A stretch of 44,406 nucleotides of DNA from Thioploca sp. Lineage in GTDB: Bacteria > Pseudomonadota > Gammaproteobacteria > Beggiatoales > Beggiatoaceae. The notes below the pieces were generated by a model that had not been told where the DNA came from, made no database searches, and saw only the letters and a program-made list of their open reading frames with translations. The stretch lies in NCBI GenBank assembly GCA_012032555.1, contig JAAUSR010000040.1:1-44406 (forward strand), given 5' to 3'. The translations under genes and the position numbers were made by a program. Below, in pieces: positions 22,571 through 37,782 of the stretch; positions within the stretch are counted from its first letter, which is position 1, and each line of letters begins with the position of its first letter.

Positions 22571-22618
22571 CGCTTAAAATGATTTTACTTAATTTAAAAT
22601 ATGGTGGAGGCGGCGGGA

Positions 22619-22880
22619 CAGTTAACCTACTATTTTCATAGTAGACTGGACTATTCCTTCATCTGGTTAAATCATTTTTCCAGATGGAGAGCATTTATGG
22701 GAACGATATGTTTCCATCTTAGTAATTCATAGGAAGATACCCTTAGAATCCTATCAGTCTCTAGCGGGCTTACCTGTTTCCAGTTTACCCGACGGCGTTA
22801 GCTTATCTTTTCTAGACTTAGCGTTCACCGTTTGAGCTCTCTTTTTCCATTAAACATCGCTGTTTAAGGCGACCTTATTG
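22619..22880 (-). ncRNA. Group I self-splicing intron in the tmRNA T-loop
   Basis: A 262-nt intron. The 5' exon ends in U (22881), which pairs U.G in P1 (exon CGAU with intron GUCG across a CAAUAAG loop); the last intron base is G (22619). P3 is GAGAGC/GCUCUC (22836-22841 and 22687-22692). P7 pairs GACU of the R element AGAGACUGA (22754-22762) with AGUC of the S element AAUAGUCC (22648-22655). P8 is a 7-bp hairpin (22660-22686), and P9 is CUACUAU-GAAA-AUAGUAG (22627-22644). Two extra hairpins between P7 and P3' look like P7.1/P7.2, suggesting subgroup IA. No homing endonuclease is encoded. Subgroup is inference. Confidence 0.93.
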
Positions 22881-23092
22881 ATCGAACCCGCGTCCGTAAG
22901 TCCTCCGCCCTTGGTTCTACGTGCATAGCCCTATCTTTATTCTAGCTGCTAGTCATCCGACAGGCAGGACAATCTAACAGTGAGTTTGGTTATGTCTAGC
23001 AAAACCACCCCAAACAAATGGCTCTACGATCTTGTGAAGGTTGACCCCTGTACTGAACGCACAAGCACGGCTCCAGGCAGCGGCTAGCCGGT

Positions 23093-23125
23093 TTAAGCAG
23101 CTAGGGCGTAGTTGTCGTCGTTGGC
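23093..23125 (-). CDS. tmRNA tag-peptide reading frame
   Basis: The resume codon is GCC, and the encoded tag is ANDDNYALAA followed by TAA, a close relative of the E. coli tag ANDENYALAA. The ALAA end is the ClpXP recognition signal. It is preceded by the usual A/T-rich TATAGTT. Confidence 0.93.
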   Translation of the reverse strand, partial: ANDDNYALAA

Positions 23126-23302
23126 AACTATATTTTTTGCAGATAAGCTTTACGAGGTAATCTGCACCTCGGCACGCCCCTCAGGTTTTGCAACCCACGT
23201 CGAAACCATGTCGCCCCCCAATTTCAAGAAAAATTAGGAAAAAAGTACTTAAATGAATTAAGCCTTAGCTAACAAGACTGATTTCTTTTAAAATACACTG
23301 TT

Positions 23303-23593: not shown

Positions 23594-23881
23594 ATGGCCA
23601 ACGAAGGTTTACACGAACGTTTTGAAGATCTCTGTGATGAAACCCGAGACATGCATCGAGCTATTGTGTCACTCATGGAAGAATTAGAAGCGGTAGATTG
23701 GTATAACCAACGAGTGGATGCCTGCAAAAATGCAGAATTAAAAGCCATCTTAGCGCATAACCGAGATGAGGAAAAAGAACATGCGGCAATGGTACTAGAA
23801 TGGATACGCCGTCAAGATCCCGCTTTCGATAAAGAATTGAAGGATTATTTATTTACTAACAAGTCGATTACCCATGAATGA
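23594..23881 (+). CDS. Encapsulated-ferritin-like protein (EncFtn family), short form
   Basis: A 95-residue two-helix ferroxidase subunit. By alignment from memory with Rhodospirillum rubrum EncFtn, the di-iron ligands E32, E62 and H65 correspond to E30 (SLMEELEAVDW), E60 and H63 (LAHNRDEEKEHAAM). Members oxidise Fe(II) as decamers and normally deliver iron into an encapsulin shell. Here the protein stops at TNKSITHE and lacks the C-terminal cargo-loading extension (GSL-type), and no encapsulin gene is adjacent. GGAGAAT precedes the ATG by 6 bases. It lies between ssrA and wecB with no co-directional partner. Confidence 0.93.
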   Translation: MANEGLHERFEDLCDETRDMHRAIVSLMEELEAVDWYNQRVDACKNAELKAILAHNRDEEKEHAAMVLEWIRRQDPAFDKELKDYLFTNKSITHE

Positions 23882-31095: not shown

Positions 31096-34000
31096 ATGTT
31101 TATAAGTAAAATGATTACTGAAAGTAGGATTTTATTTTCAGGGTTTATTATATCTCTGATGTTAACTTACTCTATAAGTTATGCTAATACACCTCCCATT
31201 GCCGGCTTTGGCTACACTTTAGGTTTTGAGGGTAACCCCAAAGAGTGGTACGTTTTAACTGATGAAGTGTCTCACTTGACACTAAAAAAGCAAGTCACTA
31301 TAGAAGTTTGGTTTAAAACGACTGATATAGAAAATAATCAAATTTTGGTTGAACTCGAAAATCAAATTAACCCCAACACGTGGGATTCTACTATCGAACT
31401 GGCTGTTGAAAATGAAGGACGGGTACGTGCCAGCGCCCGTTCATCTAAAGGCTGGACCAACGTCATTTCGGCTTCTTCTGGACCTTTTGTCAGCGATGGT
31501 TTATGGCATCATGCGGTTGGTATTGTCAGTAAGCAAGCCGTCAGTTTGTATATTGATGGACAATTTATTCATTCCGAAAAGGGAATGTCTAAAGAAGAAA
31601 GTGATTTAGAAAATGATTTCTTCATTAGATTAGGCAATGATAAAACGAACGAACGACCTTTTAGTGGACAAATAGATGAAGTTCGGATTTGGGATATGGT
31701 TCGCAGTGAAGAAGAAATCAAAGCTACTCGCTATAAAATTTTGCCTCAGAATGAACCGGGGTTAGTTGCTTATTTTAATTTTGATGAGGGAACTGGAGAA
31801 CAAGTTTTTGATAAAATTAACGGTTGGGTAGGTCACCTCAATAAGGGCCAAGATTTAATCTTTTGGGGTATTTCTGACCTAGACGCTTTTCCTATCATTA
31901 TCCAGGAAGACACTGTTTTCAACGGTGTGTTACCCGCTTATGATATGGATGGCGATCTGCTCAATTATCGTCTTATTAATAACAGTAGCAATGGAACCAT
32001 TCAACTGGATACGAGCGGTAGTTTTATTTATACACCTTATTCAGATGTTTATGGTTCAGATAGCTTTAGTTATCAGGTCAATGACGGTCAGGTTGATTCT
32101 AATCTAGCCCAAGTCCAAATTATTATTGAAGCTGTCAATGACGCACCGTACTTTCTAGCCACTGACCCGCCCATCGTCAATGAAAATGCTGGTGCACAAC
32201 TTATCCCACATTGGATAGAATTCAATCCTGGAGCCAGTAACGAATCTGAACAGCAAGTTAATTCTTATTTTGTTACTCAAATCAGTAATAGTAGTTTATT
32301 TGCACAAGAACCAACCATCGATGTTAATGGAAATCTTTACTATACGCCAGCACCGAACCGGTCGGGAACTTCTACTTTTCAGGTAACCGTTAAAGATAGT
32401 GGTAATACTGATTACGGTGGGAACAATCTCTCTTCACCACAAATCTTTACTATTCAAGTTAGACCGATTGCCACTACACCCACAGTTAGTCCGGCAGTAA
32501 CCCAGGAAGATGTCCAAACCATTCAGGAATTAATCATTGATTCTCAGGGTGATCTTTCCGTTACCCATTTCAAAATTAATCATATTATTGGTGGTACTTT
32601 ATTCCAAAGCAATGGTATTACACCGATTAAAGACAACGAATTTATCACCGTTGCTCAAGGCAATCTGGGTCTTCGTTTTACACCAACCCCTAATCAATTT
32701 GGTCAAGCAAGTTTTGCTATCCAAGCCGCTACTGGTCATCATGATAGTGAATTAGGTGGTGATATTGTCCAAGCGAATATCACGATTCAACCGGTGGCTG
32801 ATAATCCTACTATCACGCCAGCTAGTACGGTAGAAGGTACTCAAACGACGCAGGGCTTAGTTATTTCACGTCATCCGGCAGATGGTGAGGAAGTCACTCA
32901 TTTTAAAATGACCCAAATAACTAACGGTACCCTATTTCACCAGGATGGCGTAACACCAATTCATGAAGGTGACTTTATTACTTTTGCTCAAGGTCAAGCT
33001 GGACTTAAATTTACCCCAGCTTCAGTAGCTGATGGTTATTTTCAAATACAGGCTGCTATTAGTGACCAAGATAGTGGTTTAGGTGGTTCTCCTATCACCG
33101 CCACGATTGAGGTCAGTCCCATTAATGAACCACCGATTCTTAATCCGATTGGTAATCAGATCGTTTCTCCAGATCAATTAATTGATTTTAAAGCTATTGC
33201 GATTGATCCAGATGTTCCAGCGCAAAATTTAACTTTTAGTCTAGTAAACGCACCGGTCGGCGCGATTATCGATTCTAAAACTGGCCAATTTATTTGGACA
33301 CCAACCACTAATGGCGTTTTTGAAGTGACTGTAGTTGTGACTGATGATGGTATAAATCCAAATAATCTGAGTGATAGTGAAACCATCATGATTAAGGTAA
33401 CTACTGCACCAGTGTTAGAGCCGATTGCTGAGCAAGTTGTACCCGTTGAAATGACCCTCGCTTTCACGGCTAAAGCGACTTATTCTGGTCATGAATCTCT
33501 CCTTTTCAGTTTAATTGAAGCGCCAGCAGGAGCTAGCATTGATGAAAAAACCGGTGAGTTTATTTGGACACCTTTGCAAATAGGTACTTTTAATATCATC
33601 CTTCGAGTAACCGAACCAATTAGTCATTTCAGTACTGAAGCAACTATTCCCATAACGGTTATACCAATAGAGACCCGGCTTGATTTAAATTTAGATAGTG
33701 TAGCGATTTTTCAGAATGGCACTTTGAAAGTCAGTGGTCAGTTGCATCTATTTCCGCGCCACAGTATAAAAGAAGATCTAATTATTCAATTGGTTGTGAC
33801 TGAACCTGCCGGTCAGGTGATAACGAAAACCACCACTACTGCAGCGAGTGGTGAATATACTTTTACGGATTTACCGGTGTTTGACCAACTGGGACGATAT
33901 ATTTTTCAAACAACTTTTGCCGGTACCAACACGGTGTTGGCTTCGCAATCAGCATCACAATCACTGGTAGTCAGTGCGTTAGCGGGTTATGCGGTACTCA

Positions 34001-37000
34001 TTCAAGGACGAATTGCTGATGGTAGTGGGATGGAATCCTATAACAAATCTTTAAATCGGGTTTATCAACACTTAAAAAATCGTTACTGGATTGATCAAAA
34101 TATTGACTATTTTAACTACAACTTGGAACAAACTGGCGTAGATGCTATTCCAACTAAAGCGGATATTGCCACAACTTTACAACAATTACCGCAACGCTTA
34201 AACGCTAATCCAGCACCACTTTATCTGATTATGATTGATCATAGCGATTTGGCCGGTCACTTTTATTTAGATAATGGAAATGGCGAAAAAATAACGCCTA
34301 ATGAATTGAATACTTGGTTAACTCAATTAGAACAAACTTTAACGCCGCCAGCATTAGCACAACCCCGAATTATTATCATTGGTTCTTGTTATTCGGGTAG
34401 TTTATTGCCAGTGTTATCCGCACCGGGGCGAGTGATTATCACCAGTACGGCACCAGGAGAAGAATCTTATAAAGGTCCTAAGGAACCGGATGAGATTCGG
34501 AGCGGTGAATTTTTTGTTGAAGCTTTGTTTGCACATTTAAGCAAAGGTCGATTGTTAAAAACAGCTTTTGAATTAGCGAGTGCTAGTACTGAAGCCTTTA
34601 CGCGGATAAATGATTCTGCTGTAGTTAATCCATGGTTTCAAGATCAGGCTGCTCAGCATCCATTACTAGATGATGATGGTGATAAACAAGGTCATCATCG
34701 GCTGTATAACGGTGCGGATGGTGGTCAGGTTGATAACATTTACTTAGGTTTAGGAACCAAATATGATGAGTATGCTGATCACAATCCTGCAGAAATCTGG
34801 ACAGTAACACCGCATTTACCATTAGGAACGCTAGAAACTTCAGCTAATCTATTTGCCATCGTTAACCATCCAGAACGCGTGAAAGAAGGGCAAGTGATCG
34901 TTGACATTCGATCCCCTTCCTTACAATTAAATACAGATGGAACCGAACAAACTGAACAACTCGAAATTCAGCCACTAGCAAGAACTTACTTAACCTTAAC
35001 GGAAGGGAATCGCTTTACTGGTCATTTTGATCAATTTACAGAAGTGGGTCAATACGAGGTTTTTTACTCCGTTAGAGATAAATTCACCGGGGAACTTTCA
35101 CCCTTGCACTCGTCGATGGTCTATAAAGCAAAAATGGGTAACCAACCTCCGCAGCCATTTAAATTGTACACACCTAAAAATGGTCAAAAAACCGCAACAA
35201 CTTTGATATTGGATTGGGAAAATACGTTCGATCCAGAAGGTGATATGGTCAGCTATACCTTGATTATGGCAACGGATCCCACATTTCATCAAGAAATATA
35301 TCGCCAAACTCAACCTATTTCTATGGCTTATATCAATCGAGAAACGTTCATTCGAGATCCCTTTAACCCCAATAAACGGGGTTTACGCGACGGTACTACT
35401 TATTTTTGGAAAGTACAAGCGATTGATAAATATGGCGCCATGGCAGAAAGTACCATTTTTTCCTTTCAAACTAATAATACCAATGCCCCACCTAGCCTAG
35501 CGAGTATTCAAATCTTTAGTGCGATTAACTTTATTTCCTTGGAAAATGCCCGCCTAGACTTTTGGCAAGTGGATGAATTTGGCCATTTGGTCTTAGACGA
35601 GTTGGGTAATCCCCTTCCCCTAGAACAACCACCGGGGTTGTACCAAGATCAAGGCTTCTATAACTTGTTACTTCCTTATGGTAGGCGTCGAGCGACTATT
35701 CAGGTAGCGGGTTATCGATCCCAAGAAATTGAACTGAATACGGAAAGTGGATTAATGACGCTTAATGTGGCTATGACACCAATCGGTGGCAGTTTAGTTA
35801 ATCATGGTCAATTGCAATTTGCGGTGGCTCAAACGACTTTGGCAGAAGCAAGTGGTGAAATTAATTTGATTGTTAATCGAGTGGGTGGTGATGATGGGGA
35901 AATAAGCGTGTCATATGATATCTTAACTGGAGAAACAACGATAGGCCGTGATTATTTACTAACACCAGGAAAGTTAATTTGGTCTGATAAAGACAGTCGC
36001 TCTCAAAAAATACCCTTCACTCTTCTTGACGACGATCAATTTGAAGGGAATGAATCTTTTACTTTGATTTTACATACGCCCACGGGTGGTGCCAGTTTAG
36101 GAATGAATAACCCACTCGTGATTACAATTATTGACAATGAGCCAATTATCGATGCCGATTTTTCGAAAATACCACCCCAGTTACCTCAAACCAGTTCATC
36201 TGCGGGTACCGTCCAATTTCTCGCCAGCACTTATTATGTCAATGAAGGAATTGGTCCGGTGACTGCTTTTACGGTTACTCGGAATGGAGGTAGTCATGGT
36301 GCGATTACCATTCAATATACGATAACTCAAGAAGGTACGGCCAATATTGGTTTAGATTATCTCGGTGGTATGGGAATATTATCTTGGGCTGATGGTGACA
36401 ATACCCCTAAAGCGATTGATTTGACTCTCATCGATGATCAATTGATAGAAGATCCGGAAACCATTCAACTACACCTCGAAAATCTAGCTGGTGAAGCGAC
36501 ACTAGGTCTTTATCAATCAGCGACTTTAATTATTATTGACAATGAAAAAATGCCTGAAGTAACGGAGCCAACTCATGAAACGGCTCAGTTACAATTTACT
36601 TCGGCGATCTATTGGGCCCAGGAAGAAGAAAAATCTTTGGAATTGAGTGTCACTCGAACGGGAAGTTCTCAGGGCGAAATTTCAGTACAGTATGTTGCTA
36701 CGGTTAATAGTACCGCGACGGTAGGAGAAGATTATCTTGGCGGTAGTGGCACATTGTCTTGGTCAGATGGTGATGAGCAAGCGCAAACTTTTACCATCAG
36801 CTTACGAGATGATGACGACGCGGATGAAGAATTTATCCATATTATCTTGTTTAAACCAACGGGTGCGGCTCAACTGGGGATACCCAGCGAGACTATCTTA
36901 GTCATTCAAGACGAGGATAAAGAAACCCCTCTTAATCAACCGCCTACTGCCAGCATCCAATTTATTAAACCCGCTGATTTTGTTAAGGAATCCAGTAACG

Positions 37001-37782
37001 AAGTCCTCATTACCGTTATGCCTACCGGAGAAAATACCGAACCCATTACGGTTAATTATGAAACCATTGATGATACAGCGATAGCCTACCAAGACTATTT
37101 ACCTCGCCAAGGGCAATTAACTTGGTTAGCGGGTGAAAACGGGATAGCCAGTATCACGATACCGATTCTAGAAGACCGGTCAGTTGAAGCAGAAGAAAGT
37201 TTTATAGTTAAACTTTCTAATCCCAGTGCCAATGCTCAGTTAGGGACACTATCTCAATTTGAGGTACGCATTCAAGATGATAATGCCTTGCTAACAACTG
37301 CTCCATTATGGTTACCTAGCTTGGGTCAAGGTGTTACTTTTAATACTAACCCCGGTGTCAATTCTGAAGTAATTAATCCCGACGCTTTCACTTTTTGTTA
37401 TGAGCAATGCCCCCTTGCAACCACTTTTCGCGGTGGAATTTCGCTGAATGGGTTGAGTTATCATAATTCACTGAGCATACATTTTGATCAAATGGTTAAG
37501 ATAAAAGGTGAAATGGATATTGATCCGCAACATGTCAATCAAATGGCCGATATTTTAATAGTTGCCGGTTGGAAACCACTACCGATAGATGACGTTGAAA
37601 ATTATTTCCTACGCGATGATCAAGGCCAAATTCAACCCTGGGATTTAAATTTGGCTCATTTAGCTGCTGCTCAACACCAAGTGAAGTTAGCACCGACTCA
37701 ACCAGTAGAAATTTATAGTGGCTTATTAAGCCGTGGAAATCTCACCATTTTTTTGGTTACCGGCTTGAGGATGGTACGTTAA
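31096..37782 (+). CDS. Giant secreted multidomain protein: LamG, cadherin-like, caspase/C13-like protease, Calx-beta
   Basis: A 2228-residue exported protein. After a signal peptide (to about residue 30) come a LamG/concanavalin-like domain (about 36-235), a cadherin-like VCBS region (about 255-350), CSPG-like repeats (350-690) and two putative-Ig/cadherin modules (about 690-860). A legumain/caspase-like domain follows (about 985-1190) with dyad H1049 (MIDHSD) and C1098 (GSCYSG). Then come a fibronectin-like region (about 1350-1450), four Calx-beta domains (about 1574-1685, 1705-1815, 1832-1940, 1955-2065) and a C-terminal module. The last 15 or so residues are out of frame: one more T in the run at 37748-37754 gives FFGYRLEDGTLIFNGKQPIE and extends the gene to 37823. 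Likely surface-attached, calcium-binding. Confidence 0.88.
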   Translation: MFISKMITESRILFSGFIISLMLTYSISYANTPPIAGFGYTLGFEGNPKEWYVLTDEVSHLTLKKQVTIEVWFKTTDIENNQILVELENQINPNTWDSTIELAVENEGRVRASARSSKGWTNVISASSGPFVSDGLWHHAVGIVSKQAVSLYIDGQFIHSEKGMSKEESDLENDFFIRLGNDKTNERPFSGQIDEVRIWDMVRSEEEIKATRYKILPQNEPGLVAYFNFDEGTGEQVFDKINGWVGHLNKGQDLIFWGISDLDAFPIIIQEDTVFNGVLPAYDMDGDLLNYRLINNSSNGTIQLDTSGSFIYTPYSDVYGSDSFSYQVNDGQVDSNLAQVQIIIEAVNDAPYFLATDPPIVNENAGAQLIPHWIEFNPGASNESEQQVNSYFVTQISNSSLFAQEPTIDVNGNLYYTPAPNRSGTSTFQVTVKDSGNTDYGGNNLSSPQIFTIQVRPIATTPTVSPAVTQEDVQTIQELIIDSQGDLSVTHFKINHIIGGTLFQSNGITPIKDNEFITVAQGNLGLRFTPTPNQFGQASFAIQAATGHHDSELGGDIVQANITIQPVADNPTITPASTVEGTQTTQGLVISRHPADGEEVTHFKMTQITNGTLFHQDGVTPIHEGDFITFAQGQAGLKFTPASVADGYFQIQAAISDQDSGLGGSPITATIEVSPINEPPILNPIGNQIVSPDQLIDFKAIAIDPDVPAQNLTFSLVNAPVGAIIDSKTGQFIWTPTTNGVFEVTVVVTDDGINPNNLSDSETIMIKVTTAPVLEPIAEQVVPVEMTLAFTAKATYSGHESLLFSLIEAPAGASIDEKTGEFIWTPLQIGTFNIILRVTEPISHFSTEATIPITVIPIETRLDLNLDSVAIFQNGTLKVSGQLHLFPRHSIKEDLIIQLVVTEPAGQVITKTTTTAASGEYTFTDLPVFDQLGRYIFQTTFAGTNTVLASQSASQSLVVSALAGYAVLIQGRIADGSGMESYNKSLNRVYQHLKNRYWIDQNIDYFNYNLEQTGVDAIPTKADIATTLQQLPQRLNANPAPLYLIMIDHSDLAGHFYLDNGNGEKITPNELNTWLTQLEQTLTPPALAQPRIIIIGSCYSGSLLPVLSAPGRVIITSTAPGEESYKGPKEPDEIRSGEFFVEALFAHLSKGRLLKTAFELASASTEAFTRINDSAVVNPWFQDQAAQHPLLDDDGDKQGHHRLYNGADGGQVDNIYLGLGTKYDEYADHNPAEIWTVTPHLPLGTLETSANLFAIVNHPERVKEGQVIVDIRSPSLQLNTDGTEQTEQLEIQPLARTYLTLTEGNRFTGHFDQFTEVGQYEVFYSVRDKFTGELSPLHSSMVYKAKMGNQPPQPFKLYTPKNGQKTATTLILDWENTFDPEGDMVSYTLIMATDPTFHQEIYRQTQPISMAYINRETFIRDPFNPNKRGLRDGTTYFWKVQAIDKYGAMAESTIFSFQTNNTNAPPSLASIQIFSAINFISLENARLDFWQVDEFGHLVLDELGNPLPLEQPPGLYQDQGFYNLLLPYGRRRATIQVAGYRSQEIELNTESGLMTLNVAMTPIGGSLVNHGQLQFAVAQTTLAEASGEINLIVNRVGGDDGEISVSYDILTGETTIGRDYLLTPGKLIWSDKDSRSQKIPFTLLDDDQFEGNESFTLILHTPTGGASLGMNNPLVITIIDNEPIIDADFSKIPPQLPQTSSSAGTVQFLASTYYVNEGIGPVTAFTVTRNGGSHGAITIQYTITQEGTANIGLDYLGGMGILSWADGDNTPKAIDLTLIDDQLIEDPETIQLHLENLAGEATLGLYQSATLIIIDNEKMPEVTEPTHETAQLQFTSAIYWAQEEEKSLELSVTRTGSSQGEISVQYVATVNSTATVGEDYLGGSGTLSWSDGDEQAQTFTISLRDDDDADEEFIHIILFKPTGAAQLGIPSETILVIQDEDKETPLNQPPTASIQFIKPADFVKESSNEVLITVMPTGENTEPITVNYETIDDTAIAYQDYLPRQGQLTWLAGENGIASITIPILEDRSVEAEESFIVKLSNPSANAQLGTLSQFEVRIQDDNALLTTAPLWLPSLGQGVTFNTNPGVNSEVINPDAFTFCYEQCPLATTFRGGISLNGLSYHNSLSIHFDQMVKIKGEMDIDPQHVNQMADILIVAGWKPLPIDDVENYFLRDDQGQIQPWDLNLAHLAAAQHQVKLAPTQPVEIYSGLLSRGNLTIFLVTGLRMVR

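Follow-up and report, generated by a model that had tools for sequence, protein, structure and literature searches.

The tmRNA gene of Thioploca sp. is split in its T-loop by a group I intron, which is predicted to self-splice and to have been mobile

tmRNA is the RNA that releases stalled ribosomes, and SmpB is its cofactor. Genes for this RNA can carry introns: as far as its main text reports, a 2025 catalogue (PMC11915505) holds 883 unique intron-form tmRNA genes, all interrupted in the T-loop at four sites and most of them at position 7, with position 7 introns in 21 phyla and homing genes in 36 of the 883. According to the same text, position 7 introns share with the intron described here the phosphate at which they lie, after the U of TTCGAU, a −1 U paired with G and a terminal G; the founding average of 293 bp is similar to the 262 nt that we find. 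Judged by these features, our intron belongs to the catalogued position 7 tmRNA introns, and the site is already known. The main text of the catalogue makes no mention of Proteobacteria or Pseudomonadota, and the host group may be in its supplementary tables. An earlier note on this DNA had called such introns known but rare; known they are, but with 883 catalogued in the text of PMC11915505 and one in 20 of 369 genomes of the host's class (below), they can hardly be called rare.

Two further systems are close. The tmRNA gene of Clostridium botulinum has a 287-nt intron that the available text of PMC2729099 describes as self-splicing; like ours it is a small intron in tmRNA behind a 338-nt 5′ exon, but in another phylum. 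The intron of one Clostridia metagenome-assembled genome (MAG; L050) is 55.1% identical to the one described here. In giant sulfur bacteria, the main text of PMC4853749 lists introns in 16S, 23S, tRNA and dsrA genes; these, like ours, are of group I and interrupt essential genes in sulfur oxidisers of the Beggiatoaceae type, but that main text does not mention tmRNA. Among the matches listed in searches of the tmRNA-intron and Beggiatoa literature, which reached the smaller part of the subscription literature, we found no earlier report of the present intron.

The DNA analysed is a 44,406-nt stretch from Thioploca sp. (contig JAAUSR010000040.1), hereafter the window. Our main reading, to which we assign a probability of roughly 0.93, is that position 7 of the T-loop in its tmRNA gene is occupied by a group I intron of 262 nt that would self-splice to leave a normal 355-nt tmRNA and that was mobile in the past. 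The features are as follows.

22602–23218, minus strand: tmRNA (ssrA) precursor, 617 nt, from the RF00023 match and ends read from the sequence.
22881–23218, minus strand: tmRNA 5′ exon, 338 nt, with the T-loop TTCGAT at its end, read from the sequence.
23093–23140, minus strand: tag reading frame AKNIVANDDNYALAA plus stop, from translation, with coordinates read from the sequence.
22619–22880, minus strand: group I intron, 262 nt, from RF00028 (32.3 bits, below the cut-off), model R1 and covariation.
22870–22884, minus strand: P1, exon CGAT plus intron C+1 with GGTCG, with a U.G pair at the splice site.
22847–22869, minus strand: P2 hairpin, both-side changes in 6 of 8 pairs.
22836–22841, minus strand: 5′ strand of P3 (partner 22692–22687), both-side changes in 4 of 6 pairs.
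22792–22831, minus strand: P4 and P5, both-side changes in 4 of 8 pairs.
22765–22791, minus strand: P6 and P6a with a GAAA loop, both-side changes in 4 of 7 pairs.
22756–22761, minus strand: 5′ strand of P7, GAGACT, identical in 22 of 22 introns.
22697–22753, minus strand: P7.1 and P7.2, the region of the antisense LAGLIDADG-like ORF in relative G003.
22687–22692, minus strand: 3′ strand of P3, from structure and alignment.
22660–22686, minus strand: P8, 61% of cells paired in the window's register.
22648–22652, minus strand: 3′ strand of P7, AGTCC, from structure and alignment.
22627–22644, minus strand: P9 with a GAAA tetraloop, both-side changes in 6 of 7 pairs.
22602–22618, minus strand: tmRNA 3′ exon, TCCCGCCGCCTCCACCA, read from the sequence.

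The Rfam tmRNA model (RF00023) matched the minus strand at 23210–22879 with 170.4 bits (E = 9.3e-68), the match ending at the insert, and ARAGORN found no tmRNA in the whole window; both the blank ARAGORN result and the halt of the model at 22879 follow from the split T arm. The last letters of the 5′ exon, ...GCGGGTTCGAT, end at 22881, and the insertion lies between T-loop nucleotides 6 and 7 (TTCGAT/T), numbered as we understand the text of PMC11915505. Joining the exons gives a GCGGG-TTCGATT-CCCGC T arm and a 355-nt RNA. The earlier note had claimed a gene split after TTCGAT by a 262-nt insert whose removal restores this T arm and this length, and it proposed a tmRNA model search on the minus strand; the split is confirmed to the exact base, the restoration follows from the joined exons, and the model agrees up to the insert.

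The failure of ARAGORN and of the plain tmRNA model across the insert, together with a general intron model score below its cut-off, could be taken to indicate a decayed intron or a gene-breaking insertion, in which case the gene would be a tmRNA pseudogene or its RNA functional unspliced. Several observations argue against this reading, which we consider scarcely credible. By eye, the acceptor ends GGGGGCG/CGCCTCC, the CCA and the tag are all kept in the spliced tmRNA. Relative to the congener G001, the exons are conserved to much the same degree as the intron (311/327 or 95.1% and 242/258 or 93.8% identical, respectively), and the helices are maintained by covariation across introns. Moreover, this is the only tmRNA above the Rfam cut-off in a genome that is 99.7% complete, and smpB is present there with an open reading frame.

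On the 3′ side of the tmRNA gene lie a DUF489 gene (PF04356), which we take to be hflD, and a tRNA methyltransferase-family gene (PF03054), which we take to be mnmA-like. Upstream of it, on the opposite strand, is a gene for an EncFtn-like protein (23594–23881, plus strand; PF22277, 146.6 bits), presumably an encapsulated ferritin, and elsewhere in the window an ORF of 2228 aa spans 31096–37782 (plus strand).

The insert has all the group I elements that the earlier note had named: a U.G pair at the 5′ splice site (U22881.G22873 in P1), P3, P7, which we take to be the guanosine-binding site of the intron, P8, a GAAA-capped P9 and a terminal G (G22619). The Rfam Intron_gpI model, which the note had proposed to run, scores it at 32.3 bits (E = 2.2e-6 for the 701 bases searched), short of the curated cut-off of 50, so that the intron does not appear among matches at that threshold.

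Comparison with introns at the same site puts the assignment to a stricter test. A pattern scan of the genome collection, in which the T-arm halves, the −1 T and the terminal G were fixed and the insert could measure 207–267 nt, yielded 19 named records with an insert of 237–267 nt at the same phosphate. Twelve are labelled Gammaproteobacteria or a subgroup of it (three Parahaliea, a Methylophaga, Chromatiales, Chromatiaceae and MAGs), and the other seven are labelled "Proteobacteria" (one), Betaproteobacteria (one), "Muproteobacteria" (one), Clostridia (one), Omnitrophota (two) and Actinobacteria (one). The tmRNA 5′ end was recognized by script in 15 of the 19 (the exceptions being L054, L055, L056 and L063). 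These records, the window and two family relatives gave an alignment of 22 T-loop introns, onto which we placed a 65-pair P1–P9 structure, with P3 and P7 crossing, read from the window intron.

Across the alignment, 91.5% of cells were paired, whereas shuffled alignments gave 76.1% and slid partners no more than 43.8%, although a structure taken from the window row has an inherent advantage over its slid versions. Both-side changes occurred in 37 pairs and 208 cells, against 25.8 and 60.8 in shuffles, counts that are inflated by related rows; on all five measures, the observed value was reached by none of 500 shuffles. Pairs with both-side changes number six each in P2, P7.1 and P9 and four in P3. 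The paired fraction of cells is 100% in P4, P6 and P7, 90.9% in P9, 89.4% in P3 and 61.0% in P8, where pairing in the window's register is weak because P8 is shorter and displaced in most of the other rows. The P1 U.G is present in 22 of 22 rows, in 19 of which the −1 U was fixed by the search pattern. P1 and P7 themselves lie beyond the reach of covariation because P7 does not vary at all among the rows and P1 hardly does. Its structure and alignment identify the insert as a group I intron. We take P7.1 and P7.2 between P7 and P3 to be the criterion for subgroup IA, and pairing in these helices reaches 90.8% and 93.8% of cells over the 22 introns, in a region that aligns poorly in rows from other phyla; the extension suggests that the window intron belongs to subgroup IA.

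A covariance model built from 21 introns, R1, with the window and its congener G001 in the training set, scores the window intron at 250.6 bits, the window itself being a training member. In the host's family, R1 found tmRNA introns (at least 148 bits) in 5 of 42 genomes: the window's own (G000), G001, and G022, G003 and G056, the last three of which the training set excludes. A tmRNA above the cut-off is present in 37 of the 42 genomes, and in G012 a T arm can be read near a contig end; G043, G046, G050 and G055 have no readable tmRNA gene. The comparison across Beggiatoaceae tmRNA genes that the earlier note had proposed thus finds both states, with 5 of the 38 readable genes split and 33 intact. 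In the class, R1 reaches at least 165 bits in 20 of 369 genomes, six of which are taken as training members (window, L049, L051, L054, L058 and L064). The split T arm was read in all 20, by script in 18 (including G022 and the window), separately in G280 and via L054 in G200.

Only weaker R1 matches were found in 13 of the 42 family genomes (up to 37 bits) and in 34 of the 369 class genomes (up to 78 bits). Sixteen weaker loci were read, 15 of them tRNA genes with an interrupted anticodon loop and one a 16S rRNA-like locus, L076; the 11 matches read among those of the 34 class genomes are anticodon-loop tRNA introns. Like the tmRNA intron, these tRNA introns are small, belong to group I and interrupt genes for structural RNAs in the same bacteria, but they occupy another gene and another loop, and their 15 loci score 35–78 bits with R1, compared with at least 165 bits for the tmRNA introns of the class. 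A 49.8-bit match in G003 is another part of the same long intron that gives its 148-bit match.

The window's genome has a second group I intron (G000:C159:16760-16954; L009 1501-1695; L048), matching Intron_gpI at 61.9 bits and lying, by eye, in the anticodon loop of tRNA-Leu(UAA); at this place ARAGORN lists only the adjoining tRNA-Cys and tRNA-Gly. By eye, class relatives (L098-L107, L073-L075, L110 and L115) likewise have anticodon-loop group I introns, splitting tRNA-Met, -Thr, -Asp, -Leu, -Arg and possibly -Ile, with the identity of L075 unsure. The insert at L076 (G023:C7) is intron-like, in an apparent 16S rRNA gene, and perhaps has an internal ORF.

Two pairs of close relatives differ in the presence of the tmRNA intron. 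Within one genus, G056 has a 281-nt intron and G017 none, their exons being identical at 350 of 352 positions (99.4%); of the flanks, the 800 bases that lead to the site agree at 771 of 797 positions and the 500 that follow it at 481 of 496. Within another, G003 has a 646-nt intron and G049 none, with 338 of 350 exon positions and 673 of 725 (before the site) and 213 of 222 (after it) flanking positions identical. The empty sites are exact in both genera, and in either pair the direction may be gain or loss, both being compatible with the sequences.

A 133-codon ORF also runs antisense to the tmRNA through the P7.1–P7.2 region of the G003 intron (intron positions 555 to 154; locus L108, G003:C9:174720-175118), with the motif AGLFDGEGTV recognized by eye. 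It matches Pfam LAGLIDADG_3 and LAGLIDADG_1 with E-values of 0.0027 and 0.0041, at 18.4 bits against cut-offs of 22.5 and 23.1, and because these matches lie below the cut-offs we call it only LAGLIDADG-like. The ORF is homing-endonuclease-like, with a putative homing function. Its place agrees with the main text of PMC11915505, where homing genes are mostly in the P7.1 region (19 of 23). No such ORF is present in the other 41 family genomes, and tblastn found no relative of it in viral contigs. The G056 intron resembles that of G003 but lacks 358 nt (G003 177-534); the 44 nt of the frame that remain include the first seven codons of the ORF (MEDDIYT). G056 is most simply read as having a deleted homing gene, although the gene may instead have been inserted into that stem in the G003 line. 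The window intron has a short P7.2. The P7.1 region of the G022 intron (L042, G022:C259; 348 nt) contains a 20-nt repeat twice; as a candidate dispersed element this repeat was dismissed, being absent elsewhere in G022 and in six other genomes at up to two mismatches.

Mobility is one of two ways to account for this distribution. The intron could instead be an old inherited resident of the site that was lost many times and never transferred between lineages, which would change its history only and leave its splicing the same. The similar identities of intron and exons between the window and its congener would fit such inheritance, as would the intron tree, in which the five family introns are not monophyletic although the AU test does not reject their monophyly (p-AU 0.257); the G003 and G022 inserts were trimmed for this tree, and the window, G003 and G022 rows are of unusual base composition. 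However, introns are closer than exons in other comparisons: G003 and G056 share 85.1% in the intron and 75.3% in the exons, and the widest gap among pairs from the class is 28.8 points (L052 versus L067, 84.2% versus 55.4%). The gap is suggestive of transfer, although a slowly evolving catalytic core could mimic it. The homing-gene-like ORF of G003 also argues against pure inheritance, as does the exon tree, which needs four changes in intron presence within the family, its bootstrap support being unsettled and 32 of its 61 inner branches poorly supported. We therefore regard descent by loss alone as rather unlikely, and favor an intron that was mobile historically, of which the window would carry a form without a homing gene that is common to its congener G001.

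An origin in a phage or plasmid was rejected as a candidate: the intron and its flank had no blastn match (E 1e-5) in 50,697 phage or 72,556 plasmid records. A lone motif match in a viral contig coincides in part with the end of a protein frame; its locus matches no RNA family at curated thresholds, and it was taken as chance.

In the proposed mechanism, the intron would fold into P1–P9 within the transcript, a guanosine at P7 would attack after U22881, and the T-loop halves would then be ligated to yield a standard 355-nt tmRNA. By analogy with the C. botulinum tmRNA intron, ordinary self-splicing with a normal tmRNA product is most likely. The earlier note had gone further, proposing that splicing gates ribosome rescue on the grounds that unspliced RNA should not be aminoacylated. 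Splitting the T-loop does leave the precursor without a normal T arm, and if the unspliced RNA were inactive, conditions could set the spliced fraction and with it the level of rescue; if this were true, a once-selfish intron would have become a switch on trans-translation. Yet the intron is absent from 33 of the 38 readable family genes and is exactly present or absent between relatives as close as G056 and G017, whose exons are 99.4% identical. Because species with nearly identical tmRNA differ in this exact way, the intron appears dispensable in the family. Nor was the argument from aminoacylation borne out: in the computed precursor fold, which is rough and cannot hold the P3/P7 crossing, the 7-bp acceptor stem closes. 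Regulated splicing as a gate on rescue is thus very unlikely, although a gate confined to this one lineage would be compatible with these observations, and we hold it equally improbable that condition-dependent splicing, responding for example to guanosine, Mg2+ or temperature, sets the capacity for ribosome rescue. We infer that a regulatory role is most likely absent and that the intron would simply splice out of an ordinary tmRNA.

In summary, the window provides an example of a tmRNA gene that ARAGORN misses and that the plain Rfam model truncates. Our analysis adds to the known position 7 introns a covariation-supported set that is mostly gammaproteobacterial, together with two natural pairs of occupied and empty sites, one antisense homing-gene-like ORF and one remnant. 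Gain, decay and loss of an intron at the tmRNA gene thereby become testable.
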